From Pseudobacteriovorax antillogorgiicola (GTDB lineage: Bacteria > Bdellovibrionota_B > Oligoflexia > Oligoflexales > Oligoflexaceae): a DNA stretch of 64,000 bases. The stretch lies in contig NZ_FWZT01000021.1 of NCBI RefSeq assembly GCF_900177345.1, positions 62,001 to 126,000 of the forward strand. The letters run 5' to 3'. The notes beneath the pieces were generated by a model. The model was given only the letters and a program-made list of their open reading frames with translations. It was not told the DNA's origin and did no database searches. The position numbers were made by a program, and so were the translations under genes. Each line of letters starts with the position of its first letter. Within the stretch, counting starts at the first letter, position 1. Below are positions 5,303 through 14,375 of this stretch, in pieces.

Positions 5303-5434
5303 TAGCCACATGTGTATCGTATCCCCTTGAAATTGCATTTGTTATTCTGGCGCACTTCCGATTCAAAGTTTTTTTTATTTTTTTTATAGATTCATGACTC
5401 TTGATGGCACTTAGTTGTGGAGTTAGGAGGGATA

Positions 5435-7099
5435 ATGGAATCTAGAAAACTTATCGAAGAAGTTCTCGCTGGGGATCGGAAGGCTTTTGAGGCTTTGGTT
5501 CACCAATACCAAAACGTGGCCTTAGGTTTTGCTTTTTCCAAGCTTGGCGATTTCCACCTAGCAGAAGATGTAGTTCAAGAATCCTTTCTTATTGCCTATC
5601 AAAAAATGAGAAACTTGGAAGAGATCGACTCGTTTTCTTCATGGCTAAGAGGAATCGTGAATTATCGTTGTCATAGGGTTTTTCGGATGAAGCTCAGAAC
5701 TTGGGACGCCATTGATCAGAGTGGATTTGAAAAAGCTGCTGATGCCGATCAGCATCGAGACCTAGAGCAATTGCAGGAACGCAGGTTGCTAGAGCAAGCC
5801 ATTCTACGCCTTCCCGAACTCCAACGGACCGCTGTGGCTTTGTTTTACCTTGAGGATCAATCACAAAAGTTTATTTCAGACTTTTTGGATCTACCCGTGA
5901 GCAAGGTAAATAACCTTCTGGCAGATGCCAGAAAAAGACTCAATAGGAGATTATTCAACATGGCGAAAGACCACTTTAGAGAGCGTCGTTTAGAAGAAAA
6001 CTTTGCGAAAAGCATTGGGGAAGTCGTTGGGATTGAGGGACCGATCGTCGATACTCAGCTAGATAAAAACGAACAAACCTGTGTCTTTGATGTATTGGGA
6101 AGTAAGACCTCCAATCACAATAAGGGGCCAGAGATGGTTGTCGTGCAGAGGCTTGAAAAGAACCGATTTCGCTGCATGACGAATGGTTCGAGAATCTCTC
6201 AAAAAGACAAGCTTTATGCTTATGGAGACTACCATAGTGCGCTGAAGTCCTTTACAGATGATCAGGTCAAGGCAACAATCAATGCCATGAGTCCAAAGAC
6301 CCTGGAAAAGAAGCAAGTGGTCACTGGCATTAAGGTGATTGATTTGCTTTGCCCTATTATGAACTATGGCAATCTTGGTATTTTCGGTAAGGAAGGTGTA
6401 GGTCGGTTGGTTTTTCTAATGGAGCTAATCGCTAGAAAAGATAAGATAGGTTCCGATCTATCTATATTTTTCTTTGTAGATGGCTGGAATGCATTAGGTA
6501 CTCAGGACTTGCTTCAAACAGAAAAATGTCTAGCATCTGACTTCCATGATAAATTGCAAATTGCATGGATGGTTCACCCAAAGGCTGCCAGCTATGCATT
6601 TGCAGAACAAGCAGAATTTTTGGAAACGCGGCTTTATTTCAGCCCACTAAAAGCGATGGATGGGCTTTGGCCCGCCATTGATCCTATCTATTGTCACACG
6701 TTTGAGGAGCAGCGCATGCATCTCAGTACACGCCACCAAGAGGCTGCCCAGGGAGTGATCGGGGCGCTGAAATTGACAAGGCAAAAGCTTCTTGATGATA
6801 GCTATCTTGAGAAGCTGGTCCTGGGTGATGGGGAGCTTGCCAGTCAAGAAAGGCAGGTGTCAATGGCTAAGAAGCTAGATCGTTTGCCAGATGATGAGAA
6901 AGTTCTTGTTAAGCGGGGGCTGCTGCTAGAACGATATTTGACGCAACCTTTTTTCGTTGCCGAAAACCACACAGGGCGAAAAGGTGAGTTTGTTCCTTTA
7001 GAAGAGACGATACGTGATTGTCAGAGCATTCTCAATGGAGACCTAGATGATCGCAAACTAGATGAACTCATGTGGAAGGGACAATTACAGTCCAACTGA
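5435..7099 (+). CDS. ECF-type sigma factor fused to a degenerate F1-ATPase beta-subunit-like domain
   Basis: 554 residues; the ATG follows TAGGAGGG. Residues ~10-85 are sigma region 2 (AEDVVQESFLIAY, then FSSWLRGIVNYR). Residues ~120-175 are region 4 (LPELQRTAVALFY, then an HTH with VSKVNNLLADARKRL). After a basic linker, residues ~195-554 follow the F1 beta subunit from end to end: a beta-barrel start (VVGIEGPIVDTQL), TGIKVIDLLCPI, a P-loop position GKEGVGRL, GLWPAIDPIY, and a C-terminal helical domain ending ERYLTQPFFVAENHTG and EETIRDCQSILNGD. The catalytic P-loop Lys-Thr of F1 beta (GVGKT) is Arg-Leu here, and the GER catalytic-Glu segment is missing, so the domain is probably not an ATPase. 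It may sense nucleotide or bind a partner and control the sigma part. It is a single open frame, with no sign of a sequencing join. Confidence 0.88.
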   Translation: MESRKLIEEVLAGDRKAFEALVHQYQNVALGFAFSKLGDFHLAEDVVQESFLIAYQKMRNLEEIDSFSSWLRGIVNYRCHRVFRMKLRTWDAIDQSGFEKAADADQHRDLEQLQERRLLEQAILRLPELQRTAVALFYLEDQSQKFISDFLDLPVSKVNNLLADARKRLNRRLFNMAKDHFRERRLEENFAKSIGEVVGIEGPIVDTQLDKNEQTCVFDVLGSKTSNHNKGPEMVVVQRLEKNRFRCMTNGSRISQKDKLYAYGDYHSALKSFTDDQVKATINAMSPKTLEKKQVVTGIKVIDLLCPIMNYGNLGIFGKEGVGRLVFLMELIARKDKIGSDLSIFFFVDGWNALGTQDLLQTEKCLASDFHDKLQIAWMVHPKAASYAFAEQAEFLETRLYFSPLKAMDGLWPAIDPIYCHTFEEQRMHLSTRHQEAAQGVIGALKLTRQKLLDDSYLEKLVLGDGELASQERQVSMAKKLDRLPDDEKVLVKRGLLLERYLTQPFFVAENHTGRKGEFVPLEETIRDCQSILNGDLDDRKLDELMWKGQLQSN

Positions 7100-7374
7100 G
7101 TGATTGGGGCATTCGATTTTGGTTATGCACCATCATCCAAGCAGTATCAATCTTACACCCTGTAAGGCCCTTTGGGGGCATACGGGGTGAACCTTACCCG
7201 TAGGCAGCTTTTCTTCAATTGTCTCAACGACTTTCATAATATTCGTTTCATGCTAGCAAGCCCCGCATAATCCATGCTGATTAAGGAGGGAAAGTCGGTA
7301 ACCTACGCCAATTGATTAATTTTGTGGCACCTGCACCGAATAGATATAATAGAACAAAAAGCGAGGAAGTCACG
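7100..7374 (+). other. Intergenic region with a possible folded leader upstream of a small membrane protein
   Basis: No gene is seen. At 7156-7197 several short complementary segments interleave: CACCC (7156-7160) with GGGTG (7185-7189), GTAAGG (7162-7167) with CCTTAC (7192-7197), and GCCC (7167-7170) with GGGC (7176-7179). The first two pairings cross, as in a pseudoknot or two alternative folds. It could be a leader RNA element for the gene at 7375, but it matches no riboswitch I recognise. Confidence 0.3.
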
Positions 7375-7614
7375 ATGAATAACGATCTAATATTCGTATC
7401 TGCGATTGCGCTTGTTTTACTAGCCTATCAATGGTTTTTAGTAAGGAAGACGGCAATGGAAGTATTTCCACCTTTTGGGTTGCTATGTGTTCGGGACTAT
7501 GCACGTATTCATCGGCTAAGGTTTAAAGTGCTAAGCGGACTTCTGGCAGCTGGATTTGTTGTCTACGAACTGGCTGTTAGCCACTTCGATGCAATGCATG
7601 GCATGTTTATGTAA
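7375..7614 (+). CDS. Small membrane protein, two predicted helices
   Basis: 79 residues starting at an ATG behind GAGGAAG. Two hydrophobic segments (about residues 4-19 and 50-68) flank a basic middle (VRKTAMEV, then RDYARIHRLRFKV), suggesting a hairpin with its loop in the cytoplasm. The end is His/Met-rich (HFDAMHGMFM), which could bind metal. I recognise no family. It stands alone, after a long leader and before a hairpin. Confidence 0.6.
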   Translation: MNNDLIFVSAIALVLLAYQWFLVRKTAMEVFPPFGLLCVRDYARIHRLRFKVLSGLLAAGFVVYELAVSHFDAMHGMFM

Positions 7615-7651
7615 TATTCATGAGTCTTTGATCCCCTTTTCGATTCCAATA

Positions 7652-7679
7652 TCCGGCCTCCCTTTGGAAGGAGTCCGGA
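7652..7679. repeat. Inverted repeat between convergent genes
   Basis: Ten-base arms (TCCGGCCTCC / GGAGTCCGGA, one mismatch) surround an 8-base loop, between the small membrane protein gene and the convergent exported-protein gene. No T-run follows on either strand, so it is not a classic terminator; it may be a weak bidirectional one or an mRNA-end stabiliser. Confidence 0.4.
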
Positions 7680-7863
7680 CGTCTACAGATCAAAAACTAG
7701 TACATATTCGATTTGAAGCCTAGGCGTTGTCGACTTTGTCACTCGCTCGTCACTTTACCCAGCACGTACTGTCTCCCCGCTCGCTCCTTGTCGCCTAGCC
7801 GAGAATTGAACTTGACCAGGCACTGGTTGCACAAGAGCACTGTTGAGCAGCCAAAGCAGAACT

Positions 7864-8172
7864 TTACTTACTTGGAGATGGAGTTGCTTTAGACGGAGCT
7901 GGCTCGACAATCCGGATATCGATCTCTTGGCAGGTACCATCACTGCCCTTTGCCTTTAATAAGTAGCGAGTTGTGCTACCACGAAGCGATTCAGGGTCTA
8001 TAGTCTGGTTGTCGAGAATGATCTTCTTGTCTTCTTTAAGAGCCTTTTTGATCGTAGCGATATCCCTGGGAGGGGCTTCAATCTTGCGTTGGACAGTCGA
8101 TCCATTGCCACCAAATGCAGACAGGCTCCAAGCGGCACAAGTAAGAAGGGAGACGCATAATTTGATCTTCAT
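7864..8172 (-). CDS. Small exported protein, partner of the adjacent regulator (module copy A)
   Basis: 102 residues. A signal peptide (MKIKLCVSLLTCAAWSLSAF, cleavage likely near residue 22) is followed by a short helical and charged region with one cysteine near residue 82 and a Pro/Ser/Lys tail. No known domain is seen. The ATG lies 2 bases after the stop of the upstream regulator gene, and its GAAGG ribosome site lies in the last codons of that gene, so the two are translationally coupled. A second regulator + small exported gene pair with the same layout is at 37267-38423. Confidence 0.75.
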   Translation of the reverse strand: MKIKLCVSLLTCAAWSLSAFGGNGSTVQRKIEAPPRDIATIKKALKEDKKIILDNQTIDPESLRGSTTRYLLKAKGSDGTCQEIDIRIVEPAPSKATPSPSK

Positions 8173-8174
8173 GA

Positions 8175-8900
8175 TTAACCTTCGATTACGTTGAGAATGA
8201 ATCCGGCAAACATCGTGTGTTCGCCAATATTTTCTTTCCGGATCTTGGAAATTTCCATTTCTGCAGAAACCATTACTTTGAAGATTTTCTTTAAACCTTC
8301 TTCAGAAACGCCTTCTGTCTGCATACCGGCCATGGCCGTTGAAGTACCAAGCCGTTGCTTGTTGAATATTTCAGTAGCGTTACGGATCTGTGCCAAAACG
8401 CTGTCTGGATCTACCGAACCAAACTCTGATTGAATGGTCTTGATCACACCCTTAACTTCTGACAAAACTCCATGGTCAATCAGGTTATGGACTTTCTTCT
8501 CGCCAAAAGACCCGAGTAACTCACGGATAGTTTCCCGAGTGGTACCCCGTTCCGTTGCGGCCAAAGAAATGATGATAAAGTTTTCTTTGTCTTGGATCAG
8601 TCGATTCAGATCGTGAGCGATGAACTCTTGGTCTTCGTTGAAGTAATCCTCCAGCCAGGAGCCGAAGTTTGAAAAGTGCTTTTTAAGGAATTGGATGCCT
8701 TCTTCGCGCGAGCAGACAAATTGGATGATGGGTAAAATATTTTCCATCGTTGGAGTGGCGTCTTGCTGATAGATTCTACGCAAGGTAGCGTAGGCTACGC
8801 CTGTTCTCATGGACAAGCCTTTGAGGCTACGATTCTTATGACCTTCCAGGTAAGACCTGATAATTATGGCGAGATCGTTCAGCATAACGTTGCTTGTCAT
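8175..8900 (-). CDS. HTH-type regulator, paralogue of the 37647-38423 protein (module copy A)
   Basis: 241 residues, ATG 8 bases after AGGAGG. Residues ~20-50 (RSLKGLSMRTGVAYATLRRIY) look like an N-terminal helix-turn-helix. The centre holds IISLAATERGTTRETIRELLG, which matches FNIAATSHGTNRTDIRVLLG in the paralogue: a shared AATxxGTxRxxIRxLLG signature. The C-terminal part is helical. It resembles phage-like or XRE-type regulators but fits no family I can name with certainty. It is followed by a translationally coupled exported-protein gene, so it may control, or respond to, that partner. Confidence 0.7.
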   Translation of the reverse strand: MTSNVMLNDLAIIIRSYLEGHKNRSLKGLSMRTGVAYATLRRIYQQDATPTMENILPIIQFVCSREEGIQFLKKHFSNFGSWLEDYFNEDQEFIAHDLNRLIQDKENFIIISLAATERGTTRETIRELLGSFGEKKVHNLIDHGVLSEVKGVIKTIQSEFGSVDPDSVLAQIRNATEIFNKQRLGTSTAMAGMQTEGVSEEGLKKIFKVMVSAEMEISKIRKENIGEHTMFAGFILNVIEG

Positions 8901-9021
8901 TTAGGGAACCTCCTATCCATGCCATAATATACATATTGGCCAGGTTTTTCAATATAAAGTTATAATATGGGATAAAAATATTTAAAAGACGAATAAAAAC
9001 AGCTGGTAAAGGGGTTAAATC

Positions 9022-9057
9022 TTTCCGATCGCCCCACGTTTAGGAGGGAATCGGAAA
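9022..9057. repeat. Inverted repeat upstream of the pseudokinase/SpoIIE gene
   Basis: Perfect 8-base arms TTTCCGAT / ATCGGAAA are separated by 20 bases containing an AGGAGGG stretch. It lies ~100 bases before the 9159 start in the region between the divergent regulator and the large signalling gene. It could be an operator for a dimeric regulator. Confidence 0.35.
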
Positions 9058-9158
9058 ATTAGGCTAGTGAAAATAAGTACTTGAAGGAAACTATTGAGGA
9101 TTTCTAGCAAAATGGACGATGACGCAACAAGACGTATAGAAAAGCGAGCATCCTATCG

Positions 9159-12100
9159 ATGGATTTTAAATTCAAAGACTATCGAATCAAAAAGGTTCGT
9201 CGGGAGACCGAGCTCTTCAAGGAGTATCTGGCAACCCGTGGAGGCGACCCCAAACCTTACATATTAAAAGTCCTCGATCTTACCAAGGATGGAAGGGATT
9301 TTCTCCAGTATGAGTTTCGCTTTATAAAACGCTACGGTCTCTCTAGCTTTCTGATCCCGATAGACATCGATACTGAAGAAGGGCGTACAGTAGCGGTGTA
9401 CGAGATGCCGGATTGCATGAGCCTCCATAATCTGGCTAAAAGTAATATCTCGATCAAGCAAAAACTTGAAGTTGCAGTCCGGCTCTTTGATGCTCTTAGC
9501 AAGTTGAACTCCCATCACATAACACTGAGAATCGTTAATTCGCACAACATTTTGATTTCAGGTAAAGATGGGCGAATCTACTTCTCTGATCTGATGGCCG
9601 CCATTGAAGAAAAGAGTAAAGATCCTATCGCTTGGGGGGTTCGAATCCCAAAAGAACATTATCCCTACATGTCTCCAGAGCAGACAGGTCGAATCAAAAA
9701 GTCGTCTGACTATCGAACAGATTTTTACTCCGTTGGCATATGCCTTTTCGAGTTGTTCACGGGTAGTGTACCGTTCATCTGTAGCAACATACTAGAGTAC
9801 TTCAACTCTCATGTGGCAAAAGCTATGCCGCTAGCCTACGAGCTGAGCCCATCGGTACCCCATCAGGTTTCGATGATTATAGACAAGCTTGGCCAGAAGA
9901 ATCCTGAAAGTCGCTATGTGAGTGCCTGGGGAGCAAAAGCTGATCTACAAAAGTGTTGGTACTACTTTGATCGTGGGGAAGAAATTCCTCGTTTTCCATT
10001 AGCTGAAAGAGATGTATCTGACAAACTACAGTTTCCTGATCGTATCTATGGCCGGGATTTGGATATCGTACTCTTGAATCGTGAGTTAAATCGATTCAAG
10101 GACAACGAGAGCAACCTTGTGGTGCTTGAAGGTGCAGCGGGTGTGGGGCGTACAAGCCTCATTGAAGAATTTAGGCGCAAGATGGTGCGAGACGATTCGC
10201 TTTTTATGTACGGCTCCTTCACCAGGGAAAGTCAGAGGCGACCCTATGAAGCGTTGATCGAGGCATTTACGACTTTGATCAAGCAAATGTTAATGCAGTC
10301 TGAAAGTCAGCTCAACTATTGGAAAACCAAGATTCGTGATGCAGTGGGTGAAAATGGTTACTACATCTCTCGGCTTATTCCTGAACTGGAGCTGATTCTT
10401 GGCAAGCAAAAGCAGGTGAAGTCCTTAGGACCAAAAGAAGAAAAAAGTCGTTTTGAGCTAACCTTTCGCAATTTTGTTGGCAGTCTGAGCGAAAGCAAGG
10501 AGCCAGTGATCTTATTTCTGGATGACTTGCAATGGATGGATCATGCTTCTAATGATCTCTTAAACTTTGTTTTTAACCAAAACGAAGAGCTGAGAATCTT
10601 CGTTATCCTAGGCTATCGCTCCGATGCTGAAGATCGGCGCTGGTTGCTCAATGAAATTGAAATTCAGTTCGAGCGCATGGGGTATCGTATCACGCGGCAG
10701 TCATTGCAACCACTCCAGCGCAAGGATGTTGGCGATTGGTTGCAGGATACCTTTAAGTTCGATGAAGAGGAACTTGCTGAGTTCTCAGATTTGATCATTC
10801 AGAAAACGAGAGGCTATCCTTACTTTATTCGTCAGTTTATCGAACAATTAGTGGATGGTGATGCGATATACTTCAACGATCACGACTGTCGATGGTACTG
10901 GGATTTTCATAAGGCTAGCAACCAAAGGATCACCGATAATACTGCAGATCTTTTAGTCGAAAATTTTCGTAGCCTCCCACCAACATCAATCAATGTATTG
11001 TGCTATGCAGCTTGCCTCGGTGAAAGCTTTGCTCTGGATGAACTCCTGATCGTAATGGAAGAGGAAGAAACTGTTGTTAAGCAAGCATTACTTTCTATTT
11101 GTGAAGAAGGTATCTTGTTGCCCCTTATGGAGCGCAACCTTCAGTTCCTCAAAGTCTCTGAGAACTTTATCACCAATGCCAGATTTCAATTCACCCATGA
11201 TCGCGTTCGCCTCGCCGCAGAAATGCTCATGAGCCCTAAGAAACGGGCAAAAGTTCATCTCCAGATTGGTCAAGCCCAACTTTCATATCTTACCGAACAG
11301 CAGGTTGAGGATCGAATTTATGAGCTAGTGAACCACTTCAATATGTCTTTGACGGATCAATCTGCAGCGGATTTTGCGGTGGCGAGATTGAATCTAAAAG
11401 CCGCGAAACGGGCTCATCAGTCCTCTGCTTTTAAGGCGTCGATCCAGTATCTAAAAAATGCCATTACCTTGATTGGCGAAGATTCATGGCAGCATAACTA
11501 CGATACTTGTATTGAAATTTACAAAGAGATGGCGATTGTAAGCTTCCTAGGGAAAGACAACCTTGCCATGAGGGATGCGATCGAAGAAGTAAGGGTTCAC
11601 GCCAAGACTCTTGAAGATCTTATCGAAGTTCAGGAAGTTGAAATTCAAAGCACCATGGCTGAAGACAAGATTGCTGCAATTCGCATTGCCACTGACTATA
11701 TGAACTCACTTGGTACAAAGTTGCCTCATAATCCGACTAGAGTTCATGTCGCCTGGCACCTTTTGAAAGCTCTGGTTCAGATCCGGGTGCGACCCTACAT
11801 GGAGGTCCTTCGTAGTCATGAGGTGGTTGAGGACAAGAAACTTGAGGCTATCATGAGGATTGGCTGTTCAGTGGGCTCTGCTGCTTACCTGGCGCAGCCT
11901 AACTTTTCTCCGATTTTGATCTGCTTCGGTGTGGTGATGGGGCTAAAGAATGGTCATGTCTCGTCCATGCCATTCGCCTATGCTGGCTTTGCAACTATAT
12001 TGGCCGGAGTTTTCCGAAATTATGATGAAGCTCATCAGCTTGGTGAATTCAGCCGAGAGCTATCTCTTAGGTTTAATCTGAAGGATCAGATCTGCCGAGT

Positions 12101-14375
12101 TGAGCATATGGTTTGGTCGTTTATCAACCCTTGGAAGGTTCCTGTTCGAGACTGTTTGCAAGGCGTGATCAAGGCTTTCCGCACTGGAATGGACGGTGGC
12201 GAGTTTGAGTTCGCAATTCATGCCATTAATATTTACGGTTTTTACGCCTTCTTCTCTGGCAAGAACTTAAATGTGTTAAGTGATGAGCTACGTGACTATC
12301 GCCGATTGATCGCAGAGCTAAATTATGAGCACCTTCTCGCTCACACTGAGATGTATCGTCAGGGTGTCAATAACCTGATGGAAGGTTCTGAAAACTCTGT
12401 GACGCTCTGCGGTCAGTTTTATAATGAGAAAAAACATGTGGCATTTATCGAGTCGGCCCATGACTTTGCTTTTTACAAGGCAGTTCTTCAATTGATGTTG
12501 GCATATAGCTTTAAGCAAGATCTTAAGGCGATCGAATTCGTCCGTCAGTGCAATGCCAAGGCATATGCAGCCGTGGGCTCCTTTGCAACACCCACCTACC
12601 TATTCTACGAGGCGCTCCTATATATCAGACTGATTCGGGAGAAGCGAACCCGTTGGGCCTACTTCAAACGCAGGCGGGTCAAGGCAATTATGAAAAAAAT
12701 GGAGCTTTGGAGTCACCATTGTCCGCAAAATCACTACCATCGCTATTTGATTCTCAAGGGCGAGCTTCATCACCTTCAAGGCGAGTTCGAACTGGCTATC
12801 AAGTACCTCAATCAAGCATCAGATTTCGCAGAGAAAAATGGCTTTGTACACGAAGTTGCTTTATCTTATGAGCTCGTTGCGCAGTTGGCTCTGAATTCAG
12901 GACTGCTTCATATAGCTCAAGACTACATGGGGCGGAGCTTGCAAGCCTATCGAGAATGGGGAGCGACCAAAAAGGTGGAGCGTCTGCTCAAAGAGCATGC
13001 CCACTGGTTGAAGTTGGAAAATCACCAGCAATCTCATGGTCGCCGCAATGCAGAAAGTCTTGATTTTGAAACCTTCCGTGAGGTGATTTCTGGTCTTGCC
13101 CAAGAGACGCGGCACGACAAACTCATCGATCAAGTCATGCGCTCGTCGCTGATGTTTGCAGGAGGGGATAAGGGGTTCATCATCCTGCGTGAAGCTAGAT
13201 CCCAGATCTTTAAGATTGCGCGGAGTTTTGATGGTAACACCATGGCAGTTGTTGATGCGAACTATCAGAAAAGCCAGGACCTGTGTCTTGGGGTAGTGAA
13301 CTACGTTTTGAGAACAGCGCGTATTATCGTTGTTGATGATGCTTTGATTCCCAATCGAATTATTCCTGGTCTGGAACGGGAGAGTTATATAGCCGATAAT
13401 CTTGTAAGGTCTTTGGCTTGCTTGCCAATTATTGTCGGTGGACGAACGGGAAAGGAGCTGATTGGGGTTATATACCTTGAGAACAGCCTGACATCTCATG
13501 TTTTCTCACAGCAGAAGATCCAGATGTTAGAGTTAATTGGCCAGACAGCAGCAGGCCGAATCGAATTATCAAAGAAATCGGATATTTTGGAAGACTCTCT
13601 CCAGCAGGCCTACCAGGTGCAGCAGGCGATGCTTCCCAAAACTGGCGGCATCAGTTCATTCTCTGTCAGCGAGTACTACCAAGCTGCTGAGCACACTGGT
13701 GGCGACTGGTATGGCTACTACGAAGACAAGGCTGCAAAGCGACTATATTTCTTTATCGGTGACGTGACGGGGCATGGGGTATCTTCCTCTTTGATTACTG
13801 GAACAGCAGCTGGTGCGGTCTACTCATCTTTAGACACACTGAAGCGATCCACAAACAATCGTTTGACTATGGATGAAGAGATCGAGATCTTAGCCATGGC
13901 TGTTAACAAGGCGGTTTTTGATACTGGTGCGAAGGTCGATCGCATGATGACGATGCTATTCATGATCTTTGAAACTGATACTGGTAATGGGGTCTATATC
14001 AATGCTGGTCACCCGGGCGGGTGTATCATTGGCTACAAGAAGAACCGGGTCTTTTTATCATCAGGTGGCCCCCTTGGTTATTTACCTGATCCTAAATACA
14101 GAATTAGAGAGTTCAGTCTTGAAAGGCAAGAATCTATCTTCTTCTATACCGATGGTCTAACCGAAAATCGTGGGCCCAATGGCGAGGAGTTTAAAATACG
14201 GCGTCTTATGAAGCTTCTTGAGCCCAGCAAGACACCCTATGAGTTGAAACAAATCATCCTGAAACAAGGTCGAGCGATCTGGCAAAATCACCCAGCCGAG
14301 GACGATTGTGCCTTTGTCATCCTGCGATGGGAAGGGACTGAAGACGATCTGAAGAAAGAATTCCTACCTGCTTAG
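9159..14375 (+). CDS. Pseudokinase - AAA ATPase-like - TPR-like - GAF - SpoIIE/PP2C phosphatase signalling protein
   Basis: 1738 residues. Residues ~1-270 have a Ser/Thr-kinase fold with the MSPEQTGR and YRTDFYSVGICLFELFTG segments of the cyanobacterial/deltaproteobacterial multidomain kinases. However, the catalytic HxD position reads LRI (near 124) and DFG reads SDL, so it is a pseudokinase. Residues ~295-600 form an AAA/NACHT-like module with P-loop GAAGVGRTS (Arg for Lys) and Walker B ILFLDDLQWMD. Residues ~640-1280 are a long helical, TPR-like region. GAF is at ~1300-1460. A SpoIIE-type phosphatase is at ~1490-1730, with metal-binding GGDWYG and GDVTGHG and a final DDCAFVIL. The phosphatase motifs are intact, so the likely output is dephosphorylation of an anti-sigma-antagonist-type partner, gated by the upstream domains. 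The ribosome site is weak. Confidence 0.88.
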   Translation: MDFKFKDYRIKKVRRETELFKEYLATRGGDPKPYILKVLDLTKDGRDFLQYEFRFIKRYGLSSFLIPIDIDTEEGRTVAVYEMPDCMSLHNLAKSNISIKQKLEVAVRLFDALSKLNSHHITLRIVNSHNILISGKDGRIYFSDLMAAIEEKSKDPIAWGVRIPKEHYPYMSPEQTGRIKKSSDYRTDFYSVGICLFELFTGSVPFICSNILEYFNSHVAKAMPLAYELSPSVPHQVSMIIDKLGQKNPESRYVSAWGAKADLQKCWYYFDRGEEIPRFPLAERDVSDKLQFPDRIYGRDLDIVLLNRELNRFKDNESNLVVLEGAAGVGRTSLIEEFRRKMVRDDSLFMYGSFTRESQRRPYEALIEAFTTLIKQMLMQSESQLNYWKTKIRDAVGENGYYISRLIPELELILGKQKQVKSLGPKEEKSRFELTFRNFVGSLSESKEPVILFLDDLQWMDHASNDLLNFVFNQNEELRIFVILGYRSDAEDRRWLLNEIEIQFERMGYRITRQSLQPLQRKDVGDWLQDTFKFDEEELAEFSDLIIQKTRGYPYFIRQFIEQLVDGDAIYFNDHDCRWYWDFHKASNQRITDNTADLLVENFRSLPPTSINVLCYAACLGESFALDELLIVMEEEETVVKQALLSICEEGILLPLMERNLQFLKVSENFITNARFQFTHDRVRLAAEMLMSPKKRAKVHLQIGQAQLSYLTEQQVEDRIYELVNHFNMSLTDQSAADFAVARLNLKAAKRAHQSSAFKASIQYLKNAITLIGEDSWQHNYDTCIEIYKEMAIVSFLGKDNLAMRDAIEEVRVHAKTLEDLIEVQEVEIQSTMAEDKIAAIRIATDYMNSLGTKLPHNPTRVHVAWHLLKALVQIRVRPYMEVLRSHEVVEDKKLEAIMRIGCSVGSAAYLAQPNFSPILICFGVVMGLKNGHVSSMPFAYAGFATILAGVFRNYDEAHQLGEFSRELSLRFNLKDQICRVEHMVWSFINPWKVPVRDCLQGVIKAFRTGMDGGEFEFAIHAINIYGFYAFFSGKNLNVLSDELRDYRRLIAELNYEHLLAHTEMYRQGVNNLMEGSENSVTLCGQFYNEKKHVAFIESAHDFAFYKAVLQLMLAYSFKQDLKAIEFVRQCNAKAYAAVGSFATPTYLFYEALLYIRLIREKRTRWAYFKRRRVKAIMKKMELWSHHCPQNHYHRYLILKGELHHLQGEFELAIKYLNQASDFAEKNGFVHEVALSYELVAQLALNSGLLHIAQDYMGRSLQAYREWGATKKVERLLKEHAHWLKLENHQQSHGRRNAESLDFETFREVISGLAQETRHDKLIDQVMRSSLMFAGGDKGFIILREARSQIFKIARSFDGNTMAVVDANYQKSQDLCLGVVNYVLRTARIIVVDDALIPNRIIPGLERESYIADNLVRSLACLPIIVGGRTGKELIGVIYLENSLTSHVFSQQKIQMLELIGQTAAGRIELSKKSDILEDSLQQAYQVQQAMLPKTGGISSFSVSEYYQAAEHTGGDWYGYYEDKAAKRLYFFIGDVTGHGVSSSLITGTAAGAVYSSLDTLKRSTNNRLTMDEEIEILAMAVNKAVFDTGAKVDRMMTMLFMIFETDTGNGVYINAGHPGGCIIGYKKNRVFLSSGGPLGYLPDPKYRIREFSLERQESIFFYTDGLTENRGPNGEEFKIRRLMKLLEPSKTPYELKQIILKQGRAIWQNHPAEDDCAFVILRWEGTEDDLKKEFLPA

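Follow-up and report, generated by a model that had tools for sequence, protein, structure and literature searches.

An ECF sigma factor fused in frame to a degenerate F1-ATPase beta domain in Pseudobacteriovorax antillogorgiicola

We analyzed a stretch of 64,000 nucleotides (the window) of contig NZ_FWZT01000021.1 from Pseudobacteriovorax antillogorgiicola. Its forward strand carries a single open reading frame of 554 codons, running from an ATG at 5435 to a stop ending at 7099, whose product consists of an N-terminal ECF sigma factor and a C-terminal degenerate F1-ATPase beta domain (Table 1). An earlier note on this DNA had placed sigma regions 2 and 4 and an F1-beta-like region in one frame, and the open reading frame, Pfam, phmmer and codon usage all agree with that reading. 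Codon usage prefers frame 0 in each of the four parts (sigma, barrel, nucleotide-binding domain and C-terminus), which fits a maintained gene, and the 360 codons of the tail are free of stops and frameshifts.

Table 1. Features of the fusion gene and its surroundings (positions in the window)
Feature	Position	Strand	Evidence
ECF sigma factor - pseudo-F1-beta fusion gene, 554 aa	5435..7099	+	ORF, Pfam, phmmer, NCBIfam, codon usage
Shine-Dalgarno-like AGGAGGG, short spacing to ATG 5435	5425..5431	+	read directly
Sigma region 2, residues 21-86	5495..5692	+	Pfam PF04542, E 5e-11
Sigma region 4 (r4_2), residues 117-169	5783..5941	+	Pfam PF08281, E 9e-11
F1-beta N-terminal barrel, weakly conserved (SIGEVVGIEGPIVDTQL...), residues 192-260	6008..6214	+	sub-threshold collinear phmmer; alignment
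Nucleotide-binding domain start, TGIKVIDLL ..., residues 295-349	6317..6481	+	phmmer; alignment
Dead P-loop GKEGVGRL (canonical GGAGVGKT)	6386..6409	+	phmmer; alignment
LWPAIDP, Y345-PAVDP equivalent; adenine-pocket aromatic is Trp	6665..6685	+	alignments
DELSEED-equivalent loop DRLPDDE	6878..6898	+	alignments
QPFFVAENHTG, F418/A421/F424 adenine-pocket segment equivalent (F, A, H)	6944..6976	+	phmmer; alignment
Lineage-specific interval, nlpD to kinase gene, ~3.9 kb	5303..9158	.	G001 synteny

Pfam maps only Sigma70_r2 and r4_2 onto the N-terminal part, and the lack of region 3 corresponds to the ECF layout. TIGR02937 (sigma70-ECF) scores 66.2 bits, above its cut-off of 42.9, and phmmer gives a full-length match to SigW (5wuq). 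Judged by domain layout, the sigma half belongs to the ECF sigma factors. The extra domain lies downstream of sigma-4 in the same frame, the arrangement that defines an ECF sigma factor with a C-terminal extension. Elsewhere in the genome there are 14 region-2 matches.

Among relatives in which the locus can be traced, the nearest (genome G001) shares the gene order TPR-lipoprotein-FHA-surE-nlpD. There, nlpD is followed after ~76 bp, with no gene between, by a kinase/AAA/GAF/SpoIIE gene; the corresponding interval of the window is therefore extra in the source lineage, or was lost in G001. The fusion gene had been described as sitting where rpoS sits. It does follow surE-nlpD, but the site is not equivalent to that of rpoS, since in G001 nlpD lies directly beside the kinase gene. 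RpoS of a surE-nlpD-rpoS locus was likewise rejected as the identity of the sigma factor, which is of the ECF type, lacking the region 3 of group-2 sigma-70 factors, and whose gene is absent from the G001 locus. The remainder of the interval (7312-9158) holds a small membrane-type ORF (7372-7614) and, on the minus strand, a secreted-looking one (7864-8172) and an HTH-like one (8175-8900); none of the three matches a family over its cut-off. Searches for repeats, tRNAs and Rfam elements turned up no convincing marker of the interval. Adjoining it, 9159-14375 encodes a large protein kinase - AAA ATPase - GAF - SpoIIE phosphatase protein.

Few catalytic proteins are as strongly conserved as F1-beta. 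In a phmmer search against the PDB, F1-beta chains match the tail at E 2.9e-24, strongly so in residues 285-349 and 480-541, and the best NCBIfam model is TIGR01039 atpD (1e-29). All tail models within the best 25 profile matches are of F1-beta types; Rho, FliI, V-type and alpha, considered as families for the tail, are missing from these 25. The tail thus fits F1-beta better than other P-loop ATPase models, as first proposed. Its score of 103.7 bits is far under the atpD equivalog cut-off (462.85), and we therefore treat it as an F1-beta homologue and not as an F1-beta subunit.

The tail retains 81 of the 219 AtpD-conserved positions, about a third. It is homologous to AtpD at the start of the nucleotide-binding domain, where identity to the organism's own AtpD is 51% across 39 aligned residues, and in the C-terminal domain, which has ~21 extra residues. 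The barrel shows 23% identity to the same AtpD; the phmmer match is sub-threshold but collinear, and support for this part is weak, consisting of its position and a few motif residues. In an alignment with 14 AtpD proteins, the core of the nucleotide-binding domain comprises ~70 residues, against ~146 in the organism's own AtpD, so that the catalytic core is reduced to roughly half. The tail had been called a full-length F1-beta region, which holds for the (weak) barrel, the start of the nucleotide-binding domain and the C-terminus, but not for the core. The AlphaFold model of the fusion protein (pLDDT 46) is too weak to use, and the fold is therefore deduced from sequence.

In the P-loop, the Lys-Thr pair is Arg-Leu (K to R, T to L), exactly as the earlier note had it. 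Equivalents of Glu188-Arg189 and Arg260 are absent or not alignable. The segment FFFVD takes the place of the Walker B strand in one alignment and of the GER strand in another, which leaves the exact course of the core deletion ambiguous. Compared with AtpD, then, catalytic and phosphate-binding residues are lost along with half of the core, and the gene lies outside the atp operon; the tail presumably does not hydrolyse ATP. In yeast and bovine F1, the adenine pocket of beta is lined by V165, P346 and F418 and faced by Y345 and F424 (PMC5608556). At positions V165/Y345/P346/F418/F424 the fusion protein has V, W, P, F and H. A lost phosphate site with a mostly retained base pocket is the pattern that a non-hydrolytic ligand-binding domain would show. 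The pocket residues lie within generally conserved segments, and structural constraint alone may account for their retention.

The best single-piece match of the tail in plasmids (tblastn) is WP_152404100 from Paenibacillus cellulositrophicus, annotated as a 'hypothetical protein'; it joins a Cro/XRE-type HTH, recognised with weak Pfam scores, to an F1-beta that lacks the barrel. This HTH-pseudo-F1beta family was found at 11 loci (65-100% identity) and in 29 of 250 Paenibacillales genomes, always as one copy; in a wider Bacillota sample it is rare, with 3 of 398 genomes, one of them already known as a carrier. Examples are L031:6001-7059 and its orthologues L032-L041 and L047-L075. No conserved gene neighbourhood was found around these genes. 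HTH-pseudo-F1beta is a conserved one-copy Paenibacillales family, apparently undescribed.

Like the fusion protein, members of this family join a DNA-binding/transcription module to a dead F1-beta; unlike it, they have a Cro/XRE-type HTH in place of the sigma factor, lack the barrel and retain more of the nucleotide-binding domain. In their P-loop, Gln replaces Lys in 26/26 sequences and Leu replaces Thr in 23/26. The adenine pocket keeps V165 in 25/26 and both P346 and F418 in 26/26, with Y/F at position 345 in 26/26 and at position 424 in 25/26; the Walker B Asp is present in 26/26. Given His for F424 and Trp for Y345, adenine binding is less secure in the fusion protein than in the Paenibacillus family. 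For the Paenibacillus protein, the AlphaFold model has a pLDDT of 61, and Foldseek ranks F1-beta at the top with TM-scores of 0.29, values that do not confirm the F1-beta fold. Phylogenetic analysis unites the fusion tail with HTH-pseudo-F1beta (98/92), with a long-branch warning, and in the AU test grouping the fusion tail with its own AtpD is not rejected (p 0.10).

The sigma half also points to Paenibacillales. It scores 102 bits (36%) against ECF sigma factors of this order, compared with at most 53 bits against the own-phylum ECFs sampled. In the tree it falls into a starred clade (96/95) together with ECF-DUF1835 and ConA-tailed proteins, while Paenibacillales ECFs with VOC- or pentapeptide-like tails fall outside (the DUF1835 tails were named by Pfam, the VOC, pentapeptide-like and ConA-like ones by eye). 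The closest sigma halves (L042:5795-7357, L183, L160 and L159) likewise carry a long soluble tail in frame, but none of these tails (DUF1835, VOC, pentapeptide-like or ConA-like) is related to F1-beta. Varied long C-terminal domains also occur in L043:3480-5096, L163 and L186. A further Paenibacillus ECF group has ~350-aa tails (L044:4121-5935, L045:4487-6169), which look cysteine-peptidase-like by eye; that of L044 has no Pfam family match. No paper linking DUF1835 with sigma factors was found in the literature searched. As the nearest sampled relatives of both halves are in Paenibacillales, the comparison points to a modular ECF having moved between lineages, and with it to horizontal acquisition of the fusion gene. 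The donor may belong to a phylum other than the two sampled widely (the organism's own and Bacillota).

The exact fusion is known from one copy only among the genomes searched. None of 57 related genomes of its own phylum carries an orthologue of the whole fusion. Peptide-pattern searches of GTDB contigs and IMG/VR, which detect close relatives only, were likewise negative, as were phage and plasmid records. Nor did any orthologue turn up in 398 Bacillota or 399 Paenibacillales genomes with the thresholds applied, where the three top candidates of each genome were scored and the tails of 29 + 6 long matches checked.

ECF sigma factors with regulatory C-terminal extensions share the putative plan of the fusion protein, in which a soluble domain behind the sigma-2/sigma-4 core governs its activity. 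At least 26 ECF groups have members with N- or C-terminal extensions, for which regulatory roles are predicted (PMC8999054). The kind of protein is therefore already known, and it is the sensor domain that is new: the literature searched yielded neither an ECF group with an F1-beta-like extension nor a description of F1-beta reused as a non-catalytic regulatory domain of transcription factors, consistent with the original remark that no example had been described. F1-beta has also been reused outside ATP synthase in the MSC_0618 family of Mycoplasma and in MMOB1670/G1-ATPase of the gliding machinery. These F1-like proteins have intact Walker motifs and are working ATPases (PMC3369863); unlike the fusion protein, they are not transcription factors.

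Taken together, the protein is probably an ECF sigma factor regulated by its fused, non-hydrolytic pseudo-F1-beta sensor domain, perhaps through an adenine-containing ligand. The tail would bind a small ligand or a protein partner, the small ligand most likely being adenine-containing and held without phosphate coordination by the P-loop. Binding would shift the tail relative to sigma-2/sigma-4, so that promoter use is opened or closed. By analogy with ECF41, ECF42 and CorE (PMC8999054), from which we infer that the tail controls sigma activity, it would hold or free sigma-2/sigma-4 depending on the ligand or partner. Only the retained adenine pocket and the lost phosphate site bear on energy sensing, which the tail may perform. 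That the beta fold is reused as a regulatory domain, an idea raised at the outset, gains independent support from the Paenibacillus HTH family.

Could the tail instead be a beta fragment in decay, joined to a sigma factor by chance and tolerated without regulating anything? In favour of this, the fusion is a singleton among the genomes searched, its branch in the trees is very long, and its catalytic core has a large deletion. Nevertheless, the uninterrupted tail has native codon usage throughout and retains the conserved C-terminal segments, and the parallel, conserved HTH fusion demonstrates that such domains can persist; we consider decay unlikely. An intramolecular anti-sigma plug, removed proteolytically and needing no ligand, would have a precedent in ECF extensions activated by proteolysis (IutY; PMC8999054). 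The known cases are anti-sigma-like, often with membrane helices, whereas this tail is a soluble F1-beta homologue, making a plug very improbable.

The tail might also sense F1 assembly, packing with AtpA, gamma or epsilon and signalling the state of ATP synthase to transcription. The barrel position, the DRLPDDE loop and the C-terminal domain are all recognisable, and the genome encodes both AtpA and AtpD. However, the DELSEED acidic residues are mostly lost, about half is missing of the core, which makes up much of the alpha-beta interface, and the Paenibacillus family lacks the barrel altogether while retaining the rest. The earlier note had envisaged alpha-like partners, yet besides the fusion gene the genome has only AtpA, AtpD, a FliI-type ATPase and Rho, and neither an alpha nor a gamma partner is seen beside the gene or as a duplicate. 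The lack of an additional alpha-like subunit makes a dedicated F1-like assembly less plausible, and we regard assembly sensing as quite unlikely.

Returning to the regulated sigma factor, recurrence in HTH-pseudo-F1beta lifts the fusion beyond a one-off. More tentatively, pseudo-F1-beta could be an undescribed class of sensor domain, attached to an ECF sigma factor here and to an HTH in Paenibacillales, that has lost hydrolysis and uses the adenine pocket to read an adenine metabolite. The two architectures make the idea of reuse testable. The Paenibacillus family is conserved and short and has culturable hosts, which makes it the first place to measure ligand binding and regulon. How ECF sigma factors gain new inputs can be studied in the natural set formed by the differently tailed Paenibacillales ECFs. 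If the proposal is true, pseudo-F1-beta would link energy or nucleotide status to transcription.
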